Of a DNA stretch of 21,811 nt, positions 1-21,043 are shown in pieces (the first letter of the stretch is position 1; each line of letters starts with the position of its first letter). The translations under genes were made by a program, and so were the position numbers. The stretch is from a virus: positions 1 through 21,811 of IMG/VR virus record IMGVR_UViG_3300036766_000395; one strand, given 5' to 3'. The notes beneath the pieces were generated by a model. That model did not search any database. It had not been told where the DNA came from and worked only from the letters and a program-made list of their open reading frames with translations.

Positions 1-102
1 AAAACACGGCGGTTCGACTTCATCTATTATCAGCGCCTCCCTGCATTTCTCACAGCTCACATTCGGGAAGTCCAGCTTTGCGCGTATGTGAGCTGTCAGA
101 CG
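1..102 (-). CDS. -1 frame extension of the tail-assembly chaperone (partial)
   Basis: This is the reading frame entered if ribosomes slip back one base at the A AAA AAC heptamer at the end of the upstream chaperone gene. It gives 34 codons without a stop and runs off the window. Visible features are a CxxC pair (SCEKCREA) and acidic residues after it. The frame has no ATG near its beginning: it opens after a stop at 130-132, and its only conventional start in the overlap is a GTG at 60-58 without a Shine-Dalgarno. In tailed phages the short chaperone (lambda gpG type) and its frameshifted long form (gpGT type) guide tape-measure and tube assembly, and the position next to the tube gene fits. 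The alternative is an ordinary overlapping gene starting at that GTG. Confidence 0.7.
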
Positions 103-108
103 TTTTTT
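52..108 (-). promoter_or_regulatory. -1 programmed ribosomal frameshift signal
   Basis: On the minus strand the chaperone ends ACA AAA AAC GTC TGA. The heptamer A AAA AAC (108-102) is in the canonical X XXY YYZ phase. After a 5-nt spacer (101-97), positions 96-86 pair perfectly with 62-52 as an 11-bp stem with a 23-nt loop. The zero-frame stop lies at the base of the stem. Heptamer, spacer and stem all match the standard bacterial and viral -1 frameshift architecture. Frameshifting in tail-assembly genes is widely conserved in tailed phages, although Mu itself is reported to use a -2 shift. Confidence 0.82.
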
Positions 109-473
109 GTTTCTTCTCCGTCTATGAATTCATCTTCGTCAATACAAGTTTCATTGACAAATCTGGAAAATTTAATGCTCTTTCTCATTAGCATATCGAT
201 ATTTTCAGGAGTAAACGGCAGAGGCTGCCCGTTGACAATTAATCCCGGATGGCCATAATCGGTAATCTTCCGCCAACTTTTAACTACTGCCCGGCCCAAC
301 AGGCAGTCGGATATATCCCCCGCATTTTCTCCTGTTAGCTTGGCCCTCTTTGCGGCCTTCTGGTTTATTTTCCTTAGATCCGATTTTGTAGCCAGTTGCA
401 TCAGCACTTCCGTGTCATTATCAAACTGTATCCATTTCGATTGTTCCTCATCAAATATCCCAATTTTACCCAT
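96..473 (-). CDS. Tail assembly chaperone, short form
   Basis: The 125-residue cytoplasmic protein lies directly downstream of the tail-tube gene, where tailed phages encode the tail-assembly chaperone. It is mostly charged and helical and has no membrane segment. The ATG is preceded by AAAGGAGATGACAC, a strong Shine-Dalgarno at good spacing. The C-terminus is acidic (CIDEDEFIDGEE) and runs into the slippery site, so the gene probably makes this short form plus a frameshifted long form. The product would bind the tape measure and recruit tube subunits. The assignment rests on position, size and the frameshift signal; I do not recognise a diagnostic sequence motif. Confidence 0.72.
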   Translation of the reverse strand: MGKIGIFDEEQSKWIQFDNDTEVLMQLATKSDLRKINQKAAKRAKLTGENAGDISDCLLGRAVVKSWRKITDYGHPGLIVNGQPLPFTPENIDMLMRKSIKFSRFVNETCIDEDEFIDGEETKNV

Positions 474-547: not shown

Positions 548-1822
548 TTAGTTTCCGGCCTGCAGCGGATCGCCGCCAAAGGTGTTTGTTAATGCTAACC
601 TAAACGGCTTTGTGATCCCGGTCATGCCGGTCGGGGCCGCAGCGGCTGATAAACAGTTAAACTCAATCGGATTCTTAATAATGCCCCGGTCCTCAGGAGC
701 CTCTACGTTTGCATATTTGAGATTCGGCAATGATAGCACCATCTTTCTGTATGATGAGCCGCCGATCAATGCGCCGGTGAATGTCATGTCCATTTTTTTA
801 GCCGCGCCCGCCTCCCAATCCGTAAAAGGCGTTGCCGATGTATAACGCGGATATACCAGTTTTAATTTCACCTCAGGCATGCCGTCGTTAGTCGGCTCAT
901 CGATATTATCAAATGATCCGCCTGCGCCGTAGACGCCGGACATCTTACGCTCTGCGGTTAGTTCAAATTCACTCGGGTAGACCTTATCTCCGGCACCAAG
1001 GCCGGCGCCTCCCTGCGCATTCATCCGCATAACGCCCTGGCTATACAGTATACGGTTAGCCTGTTCACGGTATGTCACATTTAGAAATGTTGAGAGAGTA
1101 TTCACCGCTGAATCCCAGATAATGTTATACGCGAGCACTTTAAAACTGATCTCCAGTGGATTGCCAATCGATCCTTTAATTGTCATGCCCATGATCTTTG
1201 CGGATACGGCCTCCTCGATATTGATTTTTTTATTCATGACAATGGTCAAAAATAATCCGTCGAGGTTGTCTGCGAGGTCGTAATTGTGGTCTGCTATCCC
1301 TGCGGACATGCTTCCCTGTGTCGTTGAGCTTGTGGCCGCAGGCAGAGCTGCAGCAAAGGTCAATGTGTCAGCAGTGTTGCTTAGAATACGCCGGCATTTG
1401 TCAACATTCGTCGGCTGCCCGGAATCTGCCGTGCATTTCCAGAACTTTCCGGCATGCTCATTGACCGTCCAGCCCGCTCCCGTCTTGAGCAGCGTGGTTG
1501 TACTTCCAGCCCCCGTACCGTTGGTTGCAACGCCGCTCGTGTATGTCGGCACTCCTGCAGTCCCCATGAAATTAGCGATCAGAAGATCCAGCGAGTCATA
1601 TCTCAAATAACCCGGTCTATCGCCTTCAGCCTTGATCTCGCCCCGGTCGGAATCCGTGGGCCAGAAAAGACCCAGCGAATCATCAACCTTGTCTTCCCTC
1701 GATTTTTTTAATGAGCCTGGCAATATCAATATCCCGTCATACGCTCCGCAGGCCTCTGCCGTACCCCATGTTAGGCCCCTCTTTGCTGCCATTTTAAATT
1801 CTATTCCAGCTACACCTGACAT
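548..1822 (-). CDS. Major tail tube protein, siphophage type
   Basis: The 424-residue protein probably polymerises into the tail tube. It lies after the gp36/gp37 connector genes and before the chaperone, the usual place for the tube subunit. Residues about 1-90 and 175-424 look like the beta-rich tube core (basic start MAAKRGLTWG, then GYLRYDSLDLLIANFMG). Residues about 92-172 are a Gly/Ser/Thr-rich insertion that resembles an added surface domain. The start is clear: AAGGAGGATAAATT precedes the ATG. At 424 residues it is longer than Mu-type tubes of around 120, and no sheath gene precedes it, which points to a non-contractile tail. The family call is from general resemblance to phage tube proteins; alternatives such as another tail shaft protein are less likely. 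Confidence 0.7.
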   Translation of the reverse strand: MSGVAGIEFKMAAKRGLTWGTAEACGAYDGILILPGSLKKSREDKVDDSLGLFWPTDSDRGEIKAEGDRPGYLRYDSLDLLIANFMGTAGVPTYTSGVATNGTGAGSTTTLLKTGAGWTVNEHAGKFWKCTADSGQPTNVDKCRRILSNTADTLTFAAALPAATSSTTQGSMSAGIADHNYDLADNLDGLFLTIVMNKKINIEEAVSAKIMGMTIKGSIGNPLEISFKVLAYNIIWDSAVNTLSTFLNVTYREQANRILYSQGVMRMNAQGGAGLGAGDKVYPSEFELTAERKMSGVYGAGGSFDNIDEPTNDGMPEVKLKLVYPRYTSATPFTDWEAGAAKKMDMTFTGALIGGSSYRKMVLSLPNLKYANVEAPEDRGIIKNPIEFNCLSAAAAPTGMTGITKPFRLALTNTFGGDPLQAGN

Positions 1823-1837
1823 AATTTATCCTCCTTT

Positions 1838-2272
1838 TTACCAGTTAAATGTCGTGTCAAAATTTGTCTGAAAATCTACGCCGTAAATCGCTGCTGTTTT
1901 TGATATAAATACTAATGAGACCTTCACAGGCTTAAGCCTCTCCATTGAAAGCCCAAAGTTCTTATTTATTAATGCCTGTAAAATCAGGTTCACCATCTGG
2001 TACGCTCCGTTATCATCCTTTCTTACGGATTTCTGTCCTCTGAGGCTCTTTGCAGCTACAAGAATACTGAAGGTGCACGTTTCGTTATGATTGGGCCCGT
2101 CAATCCATTCATAGTCAGAGCCTCCGTAAACAACATATGCCGCAGGGAATTGAATTGGCAGCATATCAAGATCCTGCTCAAGCTGCCCTGCATAAGTCTC
2201 GATGGTTTTAAAGGATGTAATCTGCGTTTTGATCTCATTAATTATTTTATCTTCAATATCTTCAAAATTCAT
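1838..2272 (-). CDS. Mu gp37-like protein (DUF1834 family)
   Basis: This protein of about 144 residues lies between the gp36-like and tube genes, as gp37 does in Mu. It shows the family's pattern of an N-terminal helix (FEDIEDKIINEIK), a central beta segment (FPAAYVVYGGSDYEW) and a C-terminal strand ending in the stop region (AAIYGVDFQTNFDTTFNW). It probably acts at the head-tail junction as a terminator or joining protein. The frame also allows a TTG start at 2278 overlapping the upstream TGA. I chose the ATG two codons inside because it sits farther from the upstream stop and is a stronger start; no strong Shine-Dalgarno decides between them. Confidence 0.8.
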   Translation of the reverse strand: MNFEDIEDKIINEIKTQITSFKTIETYAGQLEQDLDMLPIQFPAAYVVYGGSDYEWIDGPNHNETCTFSILVAAKSLRGQKSVRKDDNGAYQMVNLILQALINKNFGLSMERLKPVKVSLVFISKTAAIYGVDFQTNFDTTFNW

Positions 2273-2274
2273 TT

Positions 2275-2706
2275 TCAATACCCGGATAAATTGTCTTTTG
2301 TGAAACTCCTGTCATCATTGGTTTTGTTCGTCTCTACTCCGCCCTGCGTTGGAGCAGCCGGGGCAGGATCCTCTCCGATGGAAATTAAGCCTTTAGATAT
2401 CCCTTCAAGTTGCCGGATCGCATTTTTATATCTATCCGCCCTGGTCTCAGGGATCACTTCGACCCGACGGGAATAAAGGTTATATATAGTTATATCAACG
2501 GAGATCTTCTTGACGATATCAGGGACGGTTGTAAACGGCACAGAATATTTTATGCCGCAATAACTGTCTATCTCTGCATCTGCCTGGGCGATGGCCTCGT
2601 TGACTCGTGAAGAATTAACCGTCTCTGTGTTTTCATCATCCGTTAATTGAATGAGCAATTCCTCGGGTAAAAGTTTTTTTATGTCTGTTACTGTGGAATA
2701 TGGCAT
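2275..2706 (-). CDS. Mu gp36-like head-tail connector (DUF1320 family)
   Basis: The 143-residue protein has the typical family start (YSTVTDIKKLLPEELLIQLT), a helical middle (RVNEAIAQADAEIDSYCG), and VKKISVDITIYNLYSRR followed by an RADRYKNAIRQLEGISKG helix. These features match the gp36/DUF1320 connectors of Mu-like phages, which sit under the portal as adaptor-like proteins. About 30 C-terminal residues are polar and probably disordered. The ATG overlaps the upstream gene's TAA by one base (TAATG), indicating translational coupling. Confidence 0.85.
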   Translation of the reverse strand: MPYSTVTDIKKLLPEELLIQLTDDENTETVNSSRVNEAIAQADAEIDSYCGIKYSVPFTTVPDIVKKISVDITIYNLYSRRVEVIPETRADRYKNAIRQLEGISKGLISIGEDPAPAAPTQGGVETNKTNDDRSFTKDNLSGY

Positions 2707-8638: not shown

Positions 8639-9772
8639 TTATTCATAAAGCAGAACTCCCGATCTGATATTATCAAGCGTGCTATATCTCTCCACAGGAT
8701 AGAATGTATACCCCATCCATTGACCTTTGCACGCATCAGCTACGAATATTAACCTGCGGCCTTTTTCTACCTCAATAATATCTATATATCTCTTTCTCAA
8801 AACCACTTTCCCTGTCAGTTTTTCCTTCTCAGCCTGAAGCCATATCTCCTGCGGCTTCGTAACGATATCTTCAATCAACGGTAAATATTGCTCTCTGCCG
8901 TCAAGTTTTATGTGTTTAATGAGTTCTTCATTCATGATTAAAGGCTCTTTAACTGCGTCTTTAAACACCTTACCCATCATATTTACCTTGTACATTTCTA
9001 CAGCCTTATTGCCTCGCGGCCAAAGTTCAACGCCGGAGGATCTGTAATCTTTAAAGTCCCTGGCAGATTTCAGCCCGTAATTTTCAAAGCCCTTTTTAAT
9101 AAGCGGCGTCCACCTCTCAGGATCACTTTGCAGTTTTTTGAATTGCTCTGCCGGCAGCCGTTTCCCCATGACCTCTGCAGGATTCACATCCCAACCCTTC
9201 TCCGCTATCCCCGGGCCGTTTTCCCCGACTGTTAGCTTCTCCCTTTTGACCTGACCTTCAGTTAATGCCCTGACGGTACAGCGACAATTAAAACCATTCG
9301 GCGGGTATGAGGACTTCCAAAATGGATCATCGTATTTAAAAACTTTTCCGTTCATTGCCCTGTGCGCCGGGCGTGTCCGTGGATCCATAACCGCCACATA
9401 CTCCCAGTACGGCAGATCCTCGGCAGTTTCCATCTGCTGCTGATAATGCCCGGCTTGATATGCTGTCTGGATATTATTTCTGAATATCGTATCCAGCCTG
9501 TAGGGCGCCGCGCCTTCCCATCCTCTTTTTTCCATGATGCCCTTAACACCCTTTTTAAAATCTCCGAAGGATGTGCCTTCTGACAACCCTCTTTCAGTCT
9601 CGGTAAATAGGTCTTCAAGGACGTTCATCTTCGATACGCCGGAGACTGAAAACGCCTTTGACCTTGCCTCTGCGGTCAGGCTATTGTATTTGTCAGGAGT
9701 GAGGACAACCTTATCCCTGAAAAATGCAATCGCTTTCTCGAACGGTAAAGGTTTTACAATTATCTCAGGCAT
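8639..9772 (-). CDS. gp30 (gpF)-like head morphogenesis protein with C-terminal PBECR-type nuclease-like domain
   Basis: Residues about 1-195 are the SPP1 gp7/Mu gpF minor head domain: RLDTIFRNNIQTAYQAGHY, DPRTRPAHRAMNGKVF and the signature FNCRC at 161-165. Such proteins sit inside the capsid near the portal. Residues about 262-377 look like the phage PBECR2 module (Barnase-EndoU-ColicinE5/D-RelE-like): KHIKLDGREQYLPLI, EDIVTKPQEIWL, KRYIDIIEV, then FYPVERYSTLDNIRSG. These domains are known as C-terminal fusions to gpF in Mu-like phages and are predicted RNases or toxins delivered with the DNA. The Shine-Dalgarno AGGGGAGA is supplied by an adjacent palindromic repeat. Confidence 0.83.
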   Translation of the reverse strand: MPEIIVKPLPFEKAIAFFRDKVVLTPDKYNSLTAEARSKAFSVSGVSKMNVLEDLFTETERGLSEGTSFGDFKKGVKGIMEKRGWEGAAPYRLDTIFRNNIQTAYQAGHYQQQMETAEDLPYWEYVAVMDPRTRPAHRAMNGKVFKYDDPFWKSSYPPNGFNCRCTVRALTEGQVKREKLTVGENGPGIAEKGWDVNPAEVMGKRLPAEQFKKLQSDPERWTPLIKKGFENYGLKSARDFKDYRSSGVELWPRGNKAVEMYKVNMMGKVFKDAVKEPLIMNEELIKHIKLDGREQYLPLIEDIVTKPQEIWLQAEKEKLTGKVVLRKRYIDIIEVEKGRRLIFVADACKGQWMGYTFYPVERYSTLDNIRSGVLLYE

Positions 9773-9780
9773 TGAAAAAT

Positions 9781-9850
9781 CTCCCCTAACCCCTCTTTGT
9801 CAAAGAGGGGAATTTGTTTGCTGTTCACTGTCCACTGTTCACTATTCACT
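9781..9850. repeat. Hairpin repeat plus four 7-bp tandem repeats
   Basis: CCCCTCTTT (9790-9798) pairs with AAAGAGGGG (9802-9810). This is followed by four 7-mers at 9823-9850: GTTCACT, GTCCACT, GTTCACT, ATTCACT. The block fills the whole gap between portal and gp30, and its last unit overlaps the portal's stop codon. On the minus strand the hairpin's G-rich arm ends in the AGGGGAGA used as the gp30 ribosome-binding site. Confidence 0.8.
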
Positions 9851-11369
9851 GACTCAGCGCCCTTCCTTTCAGGTCAGCGATAAACACCGCCTGCGCTAAT
9901 ACCTCATTCATCTTTGTCATATCCATCCCCTGATAAAGCTCAGCTATCCGCTGCTGTAATTCTTCATACGAGTCTGCTTCATCGACTATCCTGTATAACT
10001 GCGACAGGTCCAATCCGGATTCCGCTAAAGAGTTGTCAACGAGAGAATCAATATTTTTCTGCGCATCAATAAGCGCAGGAATGGTCGATGCCTCCGAAAA
10101 TTCACCGGGCGCGGGCTGTCCCTGCTCCACTCCCCCTCTTAAGTTAAGAGGGGGCTGGGGGGCGTTAACCAACTCCTCCCCATCCCCCGGCTCCGGAATC
10201 CCATATGTGTCATAAAAATATTTCTTCGCAACCGGCAGGCCGATATTCTGCACGAGTATCTGATCGCGCTCTGCAAGCGGCTTTAAATCTTCCTCATCTT
10301 CCGTACGTATCCAGACCCTCGGATATCCGCGCCTGCCGACTTCCGGGAAGTTGTAGTCCACGATCCAGCGGATCAGGGAATTATTCTGGCATTCACAAAT
10401 CGCATCAGCATCGGCCTTGACATATTCCGCCCTCACATCGTTATGCGTCTGGCTTGCGGCATAGGAGCCTTTACTGCCGATCTCCGAGGTAAGAGTCTGT
10501 CCTAAAAGCACCTGAGCGATCGCGCTATTCATGAAATTGCAGAGCCGCTCATAGGTATCAACCGTACCTGCGCGCGCGGCCTCGAGCAGTTCAATAACCA
10601 TGGTGTCGGGAATCTTGATTGCGGATTCCTGCTGTATCGCCTCAAGGGCGGAGAGCAGATTGTCCTGTTCTACCTTCTGCGTTCCCTGCGGATATTTTCC
10701 TATAATAGTTGGAGAGCCGAACTTGTCCGCGAATATCATCCAGAACTTGATCGCGTTCTTTTTGAACCATACCGGCCAGTAAAGCATTCTGCCGAGGCCG
10801 TCGCCGTAGGGACTGCCGTTGTCGGAGATGTTGCGGAATATGACAAACTTGCGCTCTGGTAGTTCTTCCCCCTCGATCATGTTTGAGGTTGTGAGCATCC
10901 GCATCCGGGATTCCAGGTCAAACACAAAACGTCTTGACGACTTACCGATAATGTTCTTAATCCATATAGAGCCTTCGGAGTAATCCCACATTATCTCTGC
11001 CGGTTTATAGCCGAGGACAACGCCGGAGAGTAAAGCCCTCCGCGCGGCGTCATAGTTAAATGACAGCAAAATATCTTTTACAAAGTCCGCAACCTTCTGG
11101 TCCTGCCGCCTGTCAGAGGCCGGGATAATCTCCCATTCCCTGCCGACAACTGCGAGTTTACGAGTTTGTAATGTCGAGCCGACCTTGTCGTCTCTCAATA
11201 AATCCTCATAAAGCTCGATCCCTTTACCGCCGGATTCGGATTTTAAAACTTTATCGGGATTGAGCAGTGTCCTGCCGATATAATCCATGCAAAGCGGGTC
11301 CCGCTGGACAGTCGCGATTTCATTTAAAACCGGCTTTTCGCTGTCGTCTTGTGTTTTTGCGTTATCCAT
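9846..11369 (-). CDS. Portal protein (Mu gp29-like, DUF935)
   Basis: The 507-residue portal would form the dodecameric channel at the capsid vertex and dock the terminase. Family features are YEDLLRDDKVGSTLQTRKLA near residue 55, ILLSFNYDAARRALLSGVVL, the central GDGLGRMLYWPVWFKKNAIK with FADKFGSPTIIGKYPQG, LLGQTLTSEIGSKGSYAAS, and the C-terminal MNEVLAQAVFIADLKGRA. The order terminase-portal-gp30 is that of Mu. A palindromic repeat at 10132-10154 is translated in frame as NAPQPPLNLRGG in the poorly conserved linker before the C-terminal helical region. It keeps the frame and is probably tolerated. Confidence 0.9.
   Translation of the reverse strand: MDNAKTQDDSEKPVLNEIATVQRDPLCMDYIGRTLLNPDKVLKSESGGKGIELYEDLLRDDKVGSTLQTRKLAVVGREWEIIPASDRRQDQKVADFVKDILLSFNYDAARRALLSGVVLGYKPAEIMWDYSEGSIWIKNIIGKSSRRFVFDLESRMRMLTTSNMIEGEELPERKFVIFRNISDNGSPYGDGLGRMLYWPVWFKKNAIKFWMIFADKFGSPTIIGKYPQGTQKVEQDNLLSALEAIQQESAIKIPDTMVIELLEAARAGTVDTYERLCNFMNSAIAQVLLGQTLTSEIGSKGSYAASQTHNDVRAEYVKADADAICECQNNSLIRWIVDYNFPEVGRRGYPRVWIRTEDEEDLKPLAERDQILVQNIGLPVAKKYFYDTYGIPEPGDGEELVNAPQPPLNLRGGVEQGQPAPGEFSEASTIPALIDAQKNIDSLVDNSLAESGLDLSQLYRIVDEADSYEELQQRIAELYQGMDMTKMNEVLAQAVFIADLKGRALSQ
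10132..10154. repeat. Palindromic repeat inside the portal gene
   Basis: Arms of 11 bp (CCCCCTCTTAA and its complement) enclose a single base, with GGCTGGGGGGCG following. It belongs to the same family as the copies at 499 and 16526. It is translated on the minus strand as PQPPLNLRGG, a peptide typical of such repeats when they invade genes in frame. Confidence 0.85.
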
Positions 11370-16384: not shown

Positions 16385-16611
16385 TATCTAACCGTCATCA
16401 CTACCACATCGCGCTCAGGCGTCTGGACAGCAAGGCTGGGCGATCCGCTTTTAATCATCTCATTAAATATACGGCAGCACCAATCGACGTCTGCCCGGCG
16501 GAAGGCGTCCCATATGGGATCAGATAACTCCCCCTTCCCCTTCTTATCTAAGAGGGGGATTTGAGGGGAAGTTATTTTATTCACCTTTTTAAAAAGCTTT
16601 TTAAAAAACAT
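16357..16611 (-). CDS. Small protein with C-terminal zinc-ribbon knuckle
   Basis: The 84-residue protein has a basic start (MFFKKLFKKVNKI), a helical middle (DAFRRADVDWCCRIFNEMIK) and a C-terminal CPRC knuckle (VRYCPRCGRKL). Residues about 15-31 are encoded by a CCCCTTCTTA-family palindromic repeat translated in frame (PQIPLLDKKGKGEL). TTAAGGGGTTATTAA precedes the ATG. It is translated immediately before Mor and overlaps it, so it may be linked to late control. With one CxxC visible plus Cys45-46 it could bind zinc alone or as a dimer. Confidence 0.62.
   Translation of the reverse strand: MFFKKLFKKVNKITSPQIPLLDKKGKGELSDPIWDAFRRADVDWCCRIFNEMIKSGSPSLAVQTPERDVVVMTVRYCPRCGRKL
16526..16575. repeat. 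CCCCTTCTTA palindromic repeat inside a zinc-ribbon gene
   Basis: CCCCTTCTTA at 16537-16546 pairs with TAAGAGGGGG at 16549-16558 with one mismatch, and GATTTGAGGGGAAG follows. It is the fourth copy of the family at 499, 9790 and 10132, and is read as part of the 84-residue protein. Confidence 0.75.
16586..16607. repeat. 22-bp perfect palindrome at a gene start
   Basis: Two 11-base halves, each TTTTTAAAAAG or its complement, meet at GC. The palindrome lies within codons 2-9 of the 84-residue gene and encodes FKKLFKK. It could be an operator or cruciform site, or simply A/T-rich Lys/Phe coding sequence. Confidence 0.5.
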
Positions 16612-19446: not shown

Positions 19447-19709
19447 CTTCCCTTTAAACTATCCTTAATTTTCCATAGCCAGTCTCTTTGATTTTTATTC
19501 ATGAGCGCCCAGGGCGTCTCGCCCCGTTTGTATGACTGCATAAAATTAAAAGCCTTGATATCATATGCACCCTTCGTGTATCCGCGTGCCTGATTCGGGA
19601 TATTAATAACCGTCGCGGCCTCAGCACGTTTTTTTAGTATCGCCATGTCGCTCGCAGTAAAGACCGGCGGGATCCCGTCTCCAGTCATGATGTTTTTAAT
19701 GTTTCCCAT
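19443..19709 (-). CDS. Hypothetical 88-residue protein
   Basis: The frame extends upstream to a GTG inside a palindromic repeat, but the ATG at 19709 (MGNIKNIMTGDGIPPVFTAS) is the likelier start; neither has a clear Shine-Dalgarno. The product has a helical segment DMAILKKRAEAATVINIPNQ and a Trp-containing end (KRGETPWALMNKNQRDWLWK). It is basic and soluble. The repeat at 19722 directly upstream may have replaced the original start region. No family recognised. Confidence 0.5.
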   Translation of the reverse strand: MGNIKNIMTGDGIPPVFTASDMAILKKRAEAATVINIPNQARGYTKGAYDIKAFNFMQSYKRGETPWALMNKNQRDWLWKIKDSLKGR

Positions 19710-19721
19710 AATTTTATTGCG

Positions 19722-19747
19722 AGGGCGATCCACCGGATCGCCCCTAC
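19722..19747. repeat. GGGCGATCC palindromic repeat
   Basis: GGGCGATCCACCGGATCGCC with CCTAC is a near-perfect palindrome filling the gap after the exported FN3-like gene. It is a member of the family listed at 14746. Confidence 0.85.
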
Positions 19748-19754
19748 GATAAAA

Positions 19755-20147
19755 CTATTTCGGCGCAGCCGGTGAGAGCCTGTCAATACGTTTTGTTACA
19801 ATATTTGAATCCTTACTTTCATTGCCGCCGGTATCTGTTGCCGTTGCCTTAAATTCCGCATTTACTTCCATGCCGGGCGTTACCGGCACAGTTATATTAT
19901 TTGTGATTTTTCCGCCGCCGGTTGCTGCTGTAGCCGGCACATCCACAGCCTTTACAAACCCGCTGCCGATATCGTAATAGATACTCGTATGATCAAGGTC
20001 CGTCAGTACGGAGCTATCCTCATTAATCACAGGCTCGGTATATGACAGTGTTACACTCGTGCCTGAGACCGTAGCCTCAATCGCATTTGCGATACTGCTA
20101 ACCAATAGAACTAATAAAACCAATAGAACTAATAAAATATTTTTCAT
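19755..20147 (-). CDS. Exported fibronectin-III-like protein
   Basis: The ATG at 20147 has a strong Shine-Dalgarno (GGAGGTGAATAAG), so I prefer it to a GTG three codons upstream. The 130-residue product has a signal peptide (MKNILLVLLVLLVLLVSSIA with NA cleavage). The mature beta chain has ATVSGTSVTLSYTEPVINED, SIYYDIGSGF, and VTPGMEVNAEFKATATDTGG before NESKDS, resembling an FN3 or Ig-like strand order. The hydrophobic core is coded by a tandem 18-bp repeat. An exported single domain in an early-type region might modify the host surface. It is coupled upstream to Gam by position only. Confidence 0.65.
   Translation of the reverse strand: MKNILLVLLVLLVLLVSSIANAIEATVSGTSVTLSYTEPVINEDSSVLTDLDHTSIYYDIGSGFVKAVDVPATAATGGGKITNNITVPVTPGMEVNAEFKATATDTGGNESKDSNIVTKRIDRLSPAAPK
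20101..20136. repeat. Two exact 18-bp tandem repeats in a signal-peptide core
   Basis: ACCAATAGAACTAATAAA occurs twice in direct succession. On the minus strand each unit encodes six hydrophobic codons of the LLVLLV type in the exported protein's signal peptide. Gain or loss of a unit would stay in frame and change the hydrophobic length by six residues. Confidence 0.9.
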
Positions 20148-20815: not shown

Positions 20816-21006
20816 TGTTCCCCCTTTGTGGGCGTTTTGTGAATTGCCCCTACGGATAATTGTTTAATTTTTTTTTCTACAATTGTCCCGCCGCACACAA
20901 TCCCCAGCGCAAAAGCCACTACAACAATTAAACAGACAATCAGAAAACTAAAATCGTCCCAAAGGGCGATCCGCCGGATCGCCCATACATGTGCGCTGTT
21001 TCTCAT
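20812..21006 (-). CDS. 64-residue single-pass membrane protein
   Basis: The protein has one membrane segment at about 19-41 (FSFLIVCLIVVVAFALGIVC), then a basic polar tail. Its first 18 residues (MRNSAHVWAIRRIALWDD) are encoded by a GGGCGATCC palindromic repeat (20964-20987), and its last residues (SVGAIHKTPTKGEQ) by another of the same type. Start and stop are both ATGA overlaps. Either the repeats entered a pre-existing gene and were fitted in, or the gene's ends were rebuilt from them. Role unknown. Confidence 0.55.
   Translation of the reverse strand: MRNSAHVWAIRRIALWDDFSFLIVCLIVVVAFALGIVCGGTIVEKKIKQLSVGAIHKTPTKGEQ
20830..20853. repeat. Variant palindromic repeat
   Basis: GGGCGTTTTGTGAATTGCCC followed by CTAC shares the GGGC...GCCCCTAC frame of the family, with a different centre. 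It is translated as part of the 64-residue membrane protein. Confidence 0.65.
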
Positions 21007-21043
21007 GCCGCCTCCACTGGGCGATCCGCCGAATCGCCCCTAC
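20964..21043. repeat. Two GGGCGATCC palindromic repeats across a gene junction
   Basis: One copy is GGGCGATCCGCCGGATCGCC (20964-20983) and the second GGGCGATCCGCCGAATCGCC (21019-21038) with CCTAC. They stand on either side of the ATGA junction at 21003-21006, so the end of one protein and the beginning of the next are coded by repeats. Confidence 0.85.

Follow-up and report, generated by a model that had tools for sequence, protein, structure and literature searches.

At one edge of a viral contig, the minus strand carries the end of a gene for a tail assembly chaperone, and a second reading frame runs on past its stop codon and off the contig. The stretch of DNA analysed here (IMG/VR record IMGVR_UViG_3300036766_000395, 21,811 nt, in the following called the window) is the whole virus record and ends at this edge. 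The question raised by the locus is whether ribosomes are programmed to pass from the first frame into the second, as in the G/GT genes of phage lambda, where G attaches to the tape measure and tube subunits are brought in through the T portion of G-T (PMC5009743). A first-pass annotation had proposed a −1 programmed frameshift signal in the chaperone gene, and this proposal is borne out at the sequence level by the recurrence of heptamer, frame relation and stem in relatives. As judged from these comparisons, the site is almost certainly a −1 programmed ribosomal frameshift site of the lambda G/GT type.

Organization of the putative frameshift site

The features of the site and of the neighbouring tail genes are compiled in Table 1. 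The zero-frame ORF (473-96, minus strand; in the following G) ends with GGA GAA GAA ACA AAA AAC GTC TGA, and the last base of the stop codon is at the same time the first base of a perfect 11-bp stem. The heptamer in phase, the 5-nt spacer, the stem and the location of the stop at the stem base, as described in the first-pass annotation, were reproduced at exactly the same coordinates. The same applies to the −1 frame, which is visible in the window for 34 codons only, is open up to the contig edge and encodes LTAHIRAKLDFPNVSCEKCREALIIDEVEPPCF including a CxxC motif.

Table 1. Coordinates of the predicted frameshift signal and of adjacent tail genes in the window
Feature	Position	Strand	Basis
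Tail assembly chaperone (G) ORF, zero frame, 125 aa	96..473	-	PHROG_313, predicted fold
Shine-Dalgarno-like GGAGAAG 5′ of the heptamer, possible 5′ stimulator	113..119	-	Enrichment over loci; weak singly
Slippery heptamer A_AAA_AAC, zero-frame phase	102..108	-	Sequence and conservation
5-nt spacer GTCTG	97..101	-	Sequence; also 5 nt in relatives one codon shorter
Zero-frame stop TGA	96..98	-	Sequence
Stem, 5′ arm	86..96	-	Folding and covariation
Loop, 23 nt, without conserved pseudoknot pairing	63..85	-	Comparison of loci
Stem, 3′ arm	52..62	-	Folding and covariation
Start of T domain, −1 frame, 34 codons to contig end, CxxC of four-cysteine motif	1..102	-	
Major tail (tube) protein	548..1822	-	Pfam Phage_tube_2 PF18906, E 3.2e-12
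Tail terminator / Mu Gp37-like	1838..2278	-	Pfam PF08873, PF23840; directly precedes tube gene

Heptamers of the X_XXY_YYZ type in phase are not rare in the genes of the window (32 of 6,230 codon positions), so that finding one here is no proof by itself. For the 110-nt region, RNA folding gave z = −2.3 against dinucleotide shuffles, and folding of the 58 nt 3′ of the heptamer gave z = −4.4 against mononucleotide shuffles. The strong evidence for the predicted signal is comparative and lies in the repeated occurrence of the heptamer, the frame relation and the stem among relatives.

The kinship of the G ORF was established with PHROG_313, annotated as ‘Tail assembly chaperone’, which matched the window protein with an E-value of 2.9e-9 and 13 of 13 members with a best E-value of 8e-12. 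In a VIA structural search with the G model against 622 chains, the highest-scoring chain was YqbN (3klu) with Z 5.9, followed by 2ob9, the HK97 tail assembly chaperone, with Z 5.7; both values lie below 8, the level for a firm assignment of the fold. Among PDB sequences, a profile of the G domain retrieved nothing relevant. The T domain is characterized by four invariant cysteines (CxxC...C...C) in 15 sequences (positions 9756-10082 of the provirus record L006, and relatives), which possibly form a zinc-binding site. No Pfam family was found for the fused G-T proteins, no PDB match by Foldseek for the T-domain model, and no match in the Rfam search. Neither the chaperone and tube proteins of the window, searched by tblastn in 50,697 phage records, nor the T domains of the relatives, searched in the phage collection, gave a match.

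Since the window itself ends within the T domain, the sequence past the edge was taken from relatives. The nearest one, L004, has a chaperone with 93% amino acid identity and ends one base beyond the window edge. The two distinct virus contigs share an identical 125-base suffix (window 1-125, minus-strand end; L004 6350-6474), and their near-common end is probably a fork in the assembly graph and not a genome end. The continuation is available in L006, which is a Nitrospiraceae provirus record and has an identical contig, L010, in a Nitrospiraceae metagenome-assembled genome (MAG). Its junction reads ...GAC ACA AAA AAC GGC TAA with the same stem as in the window. The −1 ORF of L006 extends for 107 codons beyond the zero-frame stop and ends 8 bases inside the tape-measure gene (ATGGCTAA; Pfam TMP_3), the ATG of which is overlapped by the ORF end. 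How far the −1 frame runs to the left of the edge, a point that the first-pass annotation had set out to be checked, is indicated by the relatives, in which it runs about 80-115 codons beyond the zero-frame stop.

Frame relation and heptamer in relatives

Two sets of relatives were compared. The first set resulted from a tube-protein search of 396 Nitrospirota genomes, which yielded 16 further stretches. The held-out set was collected from viral contigs and more genomes with a protein profile of the T domain only, so that heptamer and stem did not enter directly into the selection. In the first set, the frame of T is −1 with respect to G in each locus for which both domains could be located, and A_AAA_AAC is present in phase in all loci but one, which has A_AAA_AAA within a run of nine A's. 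The −1 relation together with a slippery heptamer in phase was found in 22 of 22 distinct held-out loci (19 A_AAA_AAC, and one each of G_GGA_AAC in L089, A_AAA_AAG in L107 and A_AAA_AAA in L110). Over all 38 distinct loci, this amounts to 34 A_AAA_AAC, one G_GGA_AAC, one A_AAA_AAG and two A_AAA_AAA; the second domain is in the −1 frame in 38 of 38 and in the +1/−2 frame, the type known from Mu, in none. Apart from relatives already known, a scan of IMG/VR DNA for the pattern of heptamer and stem returned a single hit (L007), which lies in an unrelated gene and is a chance match.

Some loci deviate. In L044 (G365:C274) the A9 run replaces A_AAA_AAC, the stem is broken and the match to the tube homologue contains an in-frame TAG, so that the prophage may be decaying. 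In L041 (1258-1503, tube strand) the chaperone ORF contains an in-frame stop, with heptamer and T domain intact. In L046 a tube homologue is present and a chaperone match was not found.

The frame could also be changed by transcriptional slippage on the A run, without participation of the ribosome. The site is indeed a run of six A's, and longer runs are present in two relatives (L044, L110). However, in most loci the run is limited to six or seven A's, which is short for slippage of RNA polymerase, and the heptamer at the same place in L089, G_GGA_AAC, is not a homopolymer; this replacement points to tandem ribosomal slippage as opposed to both an amino acid constraint and polymerase slippage. 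A covarying stem-loop at a fixed spacing also fits ribosomal slippage, and transcriptional slippage is thus considered very improbable.

According to a second alternative, T is translated from its own start or by termination-reinitiation, and the heptamer is incidental. The overlap of the zero-frame stop with the −1 frame resembles the arrangement of coupled genes, but the only start common to most −1 ORFs is a GTG within the 3′ stem arm, which lacks an upstream Shine-Dalgarno sequence and lies amid conserved sequence. Moreover, the heptamer is conserved beyond what the protein and the codon usage of each locus account for (summed log10 P of about −45 over 38 loci, a rough value, as L110 was entered out of phase and the loci are related). 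A separate start for T, which the first-pass annotation had named, together with a loss of heptamer and stem, as an observation that would speak against its reading, was rejected because no plausible conserved start codon exists among the relatives, and the probability of this alternative is close to nil. The comparison of relatives proposed in the same annotation gave a heptamer that is kept throughout and a stem that is kept in the window's own lineage.

Stem-loop and further candidate stimulators

In an alignment of 17 rows, 80.5% of the cells of a 13-pair stem are paired, and six pairs are changed on both sides (16 such cells compared with 3.1 in shuffles). When one arm was slid by 1-3 columns as a control, pairing fell to 26-48%. 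RNAalifold recovered the same hairpin unprompted. Two length forms occur, which differ by one codon 3′ of the heptamer; the longer form has up to 3 extra base pairs at the stem base, so that the spacer is about 5 nt in both.

The stem could be a by-product of T-domain coding that takes no part in frameshifting, and its arms do encode conserved residues (AHI, VSC). Due to the fact that both arms are coding in the −1 frame, synonymous codons were shuffled within each T ORF (500 shuffles) as a control. The 16 Nitrospirota loci have a mean of 8.9 of 10 core pairs compared with 6.5 in these protein-keeping shuffles (sd 0.28, maximum 7.4), and eight held-out stem-bearing loci have a mean of 9.0 compared with 6.4. 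At least 8 of 10 core pairs were counted in 23 of these 24 loci, the exception being the seemingly degenerate L044. The other 13 held-out loci, in which the heptamer is kept, show no excess of pairs (5.2 compared with 5.1 in shuffles); the division of the held-out set into loci with and without stem was made after inspection of the stems. That this sister group keeps the heptamer and lacks the stem would fit a by-product and implies that the stem is not essential to the family. Against a by-product stand the excess of pairs over the synonymous shuffles and the compensatory changes, which far exceed both the slid and the shuffled controls, and a stem without function in frameshifting is accordingly rated as unlikely. 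In the sister set (L090, L095-L109), A_AAA_AAC is in place, and another possible hairpin was seen in several members (e.g. L102, L105).

The first-pass annotation had additionally considered a pseudoknot through the 23-nt loop. In the window, 70-65 of the loop (CUUCCC) are able to pair with 41-36 (GGGAGG), as an H-type pseudoknot would demand. This pairing, the sole loop-to-3′ pairing found, does not hold up in many relatives: 56% of its cells are paired, and 10-11 of 17 loci lack the outermost pairs. RNAalifold, which is blind to pseudoknots, backs a plain hairpin. That the stimulator is a pseudoknot is therefore also unlikely, and the simple stem-loop is the preferred reading.

On the 5′ side of the heptamer, pairing with the 3′ end of the 16S rRNA peaks at about −16 to −7 and is stronger there than at any other place of the ORF, with a mean of −6.2 compared with an ORF control with a mean of −2.6 and a minimum of −5.3. 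The mean anti-Shine-Dalgarno energy of 16 loci is −5.9 compared with −4.3 in synonymous shuffles (sd 0.48). The pairing is non-significant in single loci and also in those held-out loci that bear the stem. The coding region at this position is rich in Glu, Lys and Arg. The Shine-Dalgarno-like element is a suggestive candidate for a 5′ stimulator.

As to the decoding of the heptamer, the MAG bearing L006 contains a tRNA-Lys with the anticodon CUU and no tRNA-Lys(UUU) among its 37 tRNAs, which is why the MAG is probably incomplete. In E. coli, AAA and AAG are both read by one kind of Lys tRNA, and A_AAA_AAC is reported to be much less slippery than A_AAA_AAG (PMC5009743). A dedicated AAG-reading tRNA could lower the slipperiness of AAG and favour AAC.

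Phage type, known systems and implications

The gene order of the tail module is terminator, tube, chaperone and tape measure, the last of these being seen in L006. The genes for head, packaging and early functions resemble those of Mu (Portal_Mu, Mu_F, Gp36, Gp37, Gp27, GemA). No sheath gene was found in the tail module, and none lies between the terminator and tube genes. The tail is most likely siphoviral, since a sheath gene is lacking and the gene order resembles that of the annotated siphophage B3 (NC_006548). B3 is also one of the best isolate matches of the portal. For the D3112-like phages, which are Mu-like siphophages, a putative −1 site has already been proposed, and the −2 shift of Mu has been called exceptional (PMC4378225). 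The suggestion of the first-pass annotation that a −1 signal would be a departure from Mu was consequently rejected: only the head, packaging and early genes are Mu-like, the sheath gene is absent, −1 is the norm for siphoviral tails and the published siphophages provide a precedent.

Further observations were made in the window. The Mu F-like (gp30) head protein (8639-9772) carries a C-terminal PBECR2 nuclease-like domain. A palindromic repeat of the CCCCCTCTTAA/TTAAGAGGGGG type occurs three times (496-549, 10132-10154, 16524-16577); one copy lies inside the portal gene, where it reads PPLNLRGG, and LRGG-type stretches are also present in the Nitrospirota locus L046. It resembles a REP-like repeat of host origin that the phage carries. 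Other intergenic inverted repeats, of the GGGCGATCC type, were found at 19708-19758 and 20964-21039 of the window and in the tube-chaperone gap of L004 (5940-5975), while the corresponding gap of L006 has a different palindromic repeat, CCCGCGCAGGCGGG.

For the ribosomal slip, its frequency and the roles of both products we infer the following. The majority of ribosomes would terminate at TGA 98-96, and their product would be the short form of the chaperone, G. A smaller number would be halted for a time by the 11-bp stem-loop located 5 nt downstream, while Lys-tRNA occupies AAA and Asn-tRNA occupies AAC, and would move one base back on A_AAA_AAC into the −1 frame. Translation would then continue across some 100 residues, four conserved cysteines among them, and yield a G-T fusion. 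By analogy with lambda, G would coat the tape-measure protein, the T domain would recruit the tail-tube protein and the G:GT ratio would set up tail assembly.

With lambda G/GT (PMC5009743) the locus shares the location of the gene between major tail protein and tape measure (here via L006), a short zero-frame product and a −1 extended product (here predicted), and a slippery heptamer close to where the first gene ends; it differs in the heptamer A_AAA_AAC and in the T domain, which has four conserved cysteines and lacks a Pfam match. According to the main review, the shift apparently takes place without stimulators in certain tailed phages. The D3112-like and B3-like Pseudomonas siphophages likewise combine a Mu-like head module with a siphovirus tail, and the gene order of B3 is similar. 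For the chaperone gene of PaMx73 the −1 site T TTT TTC has been proposed (PMC4378225); the heptamer of the window is different, a conserved stem is present here, and the phage records contain no tblastn match to its chaperone and tube proteins. Phage Mu has gp41/gp42 with a −2 frameshift at the equivalent genome place and shares the head genes, whereas every locus here has the −1 relation and the tail module has no sheath gene.

The E. coli dnaX site (PMC7282821, PMC5009743) shares an A-rich heptamer, a 5-nt linker (AGUGA in dnaX; PMC7282821) and a stem-loop of about 10 bp. To the internal Shine-Dalgarno element of dnaX would correspond the candidate element here, which is only statistically enriched. 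The gene is unrelated, however, its heptamer is A_AAA_AAG, which is present here in one of 38 loci (L107), and the stem of about 10 bp after a 5-nt linker is found in one lineage only. It is conceivable, with the balance tilting slightly against it, that a stimulator in three parts like that of dnaX (an upstream Shine-Dalgarno-like element, A_AAA_AAC with a 5-nt spacer, and a covarying stem of 10-13 bp) arose at the chaperone gene in one lineage of siphophages of the Nitrospirota, giving a higher or tuned G:GT ratio in comparison with structure-free lambda-like sites. If this is true, the stem-lacking sister phages are a natural control for the stimulator.

Taken as a whole, the frameshift signal is of a known kind, usual for long-tailed phages, and no exception to the rule, although its hairpin is conserved to an unusual degree. 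Within the literature considered here, what may be modestly new is that a frameshift site of a tail chaperone is followed by a 3′ stem-loop with covariation. Tail-chaperone frameshifting is conserved in long-tailed phages, and several well-known cases have been described as a bare slippery site. The locus provides a clean example of a phage with a Mu-like head and a siphovirus-type tail in which the tail retains its own −1 recoding habit, and relatives with and without the stem, which have heptamer and proteins in common, make the effect of a stimulator on the G:GT ratio and on tail assembly directly testable.
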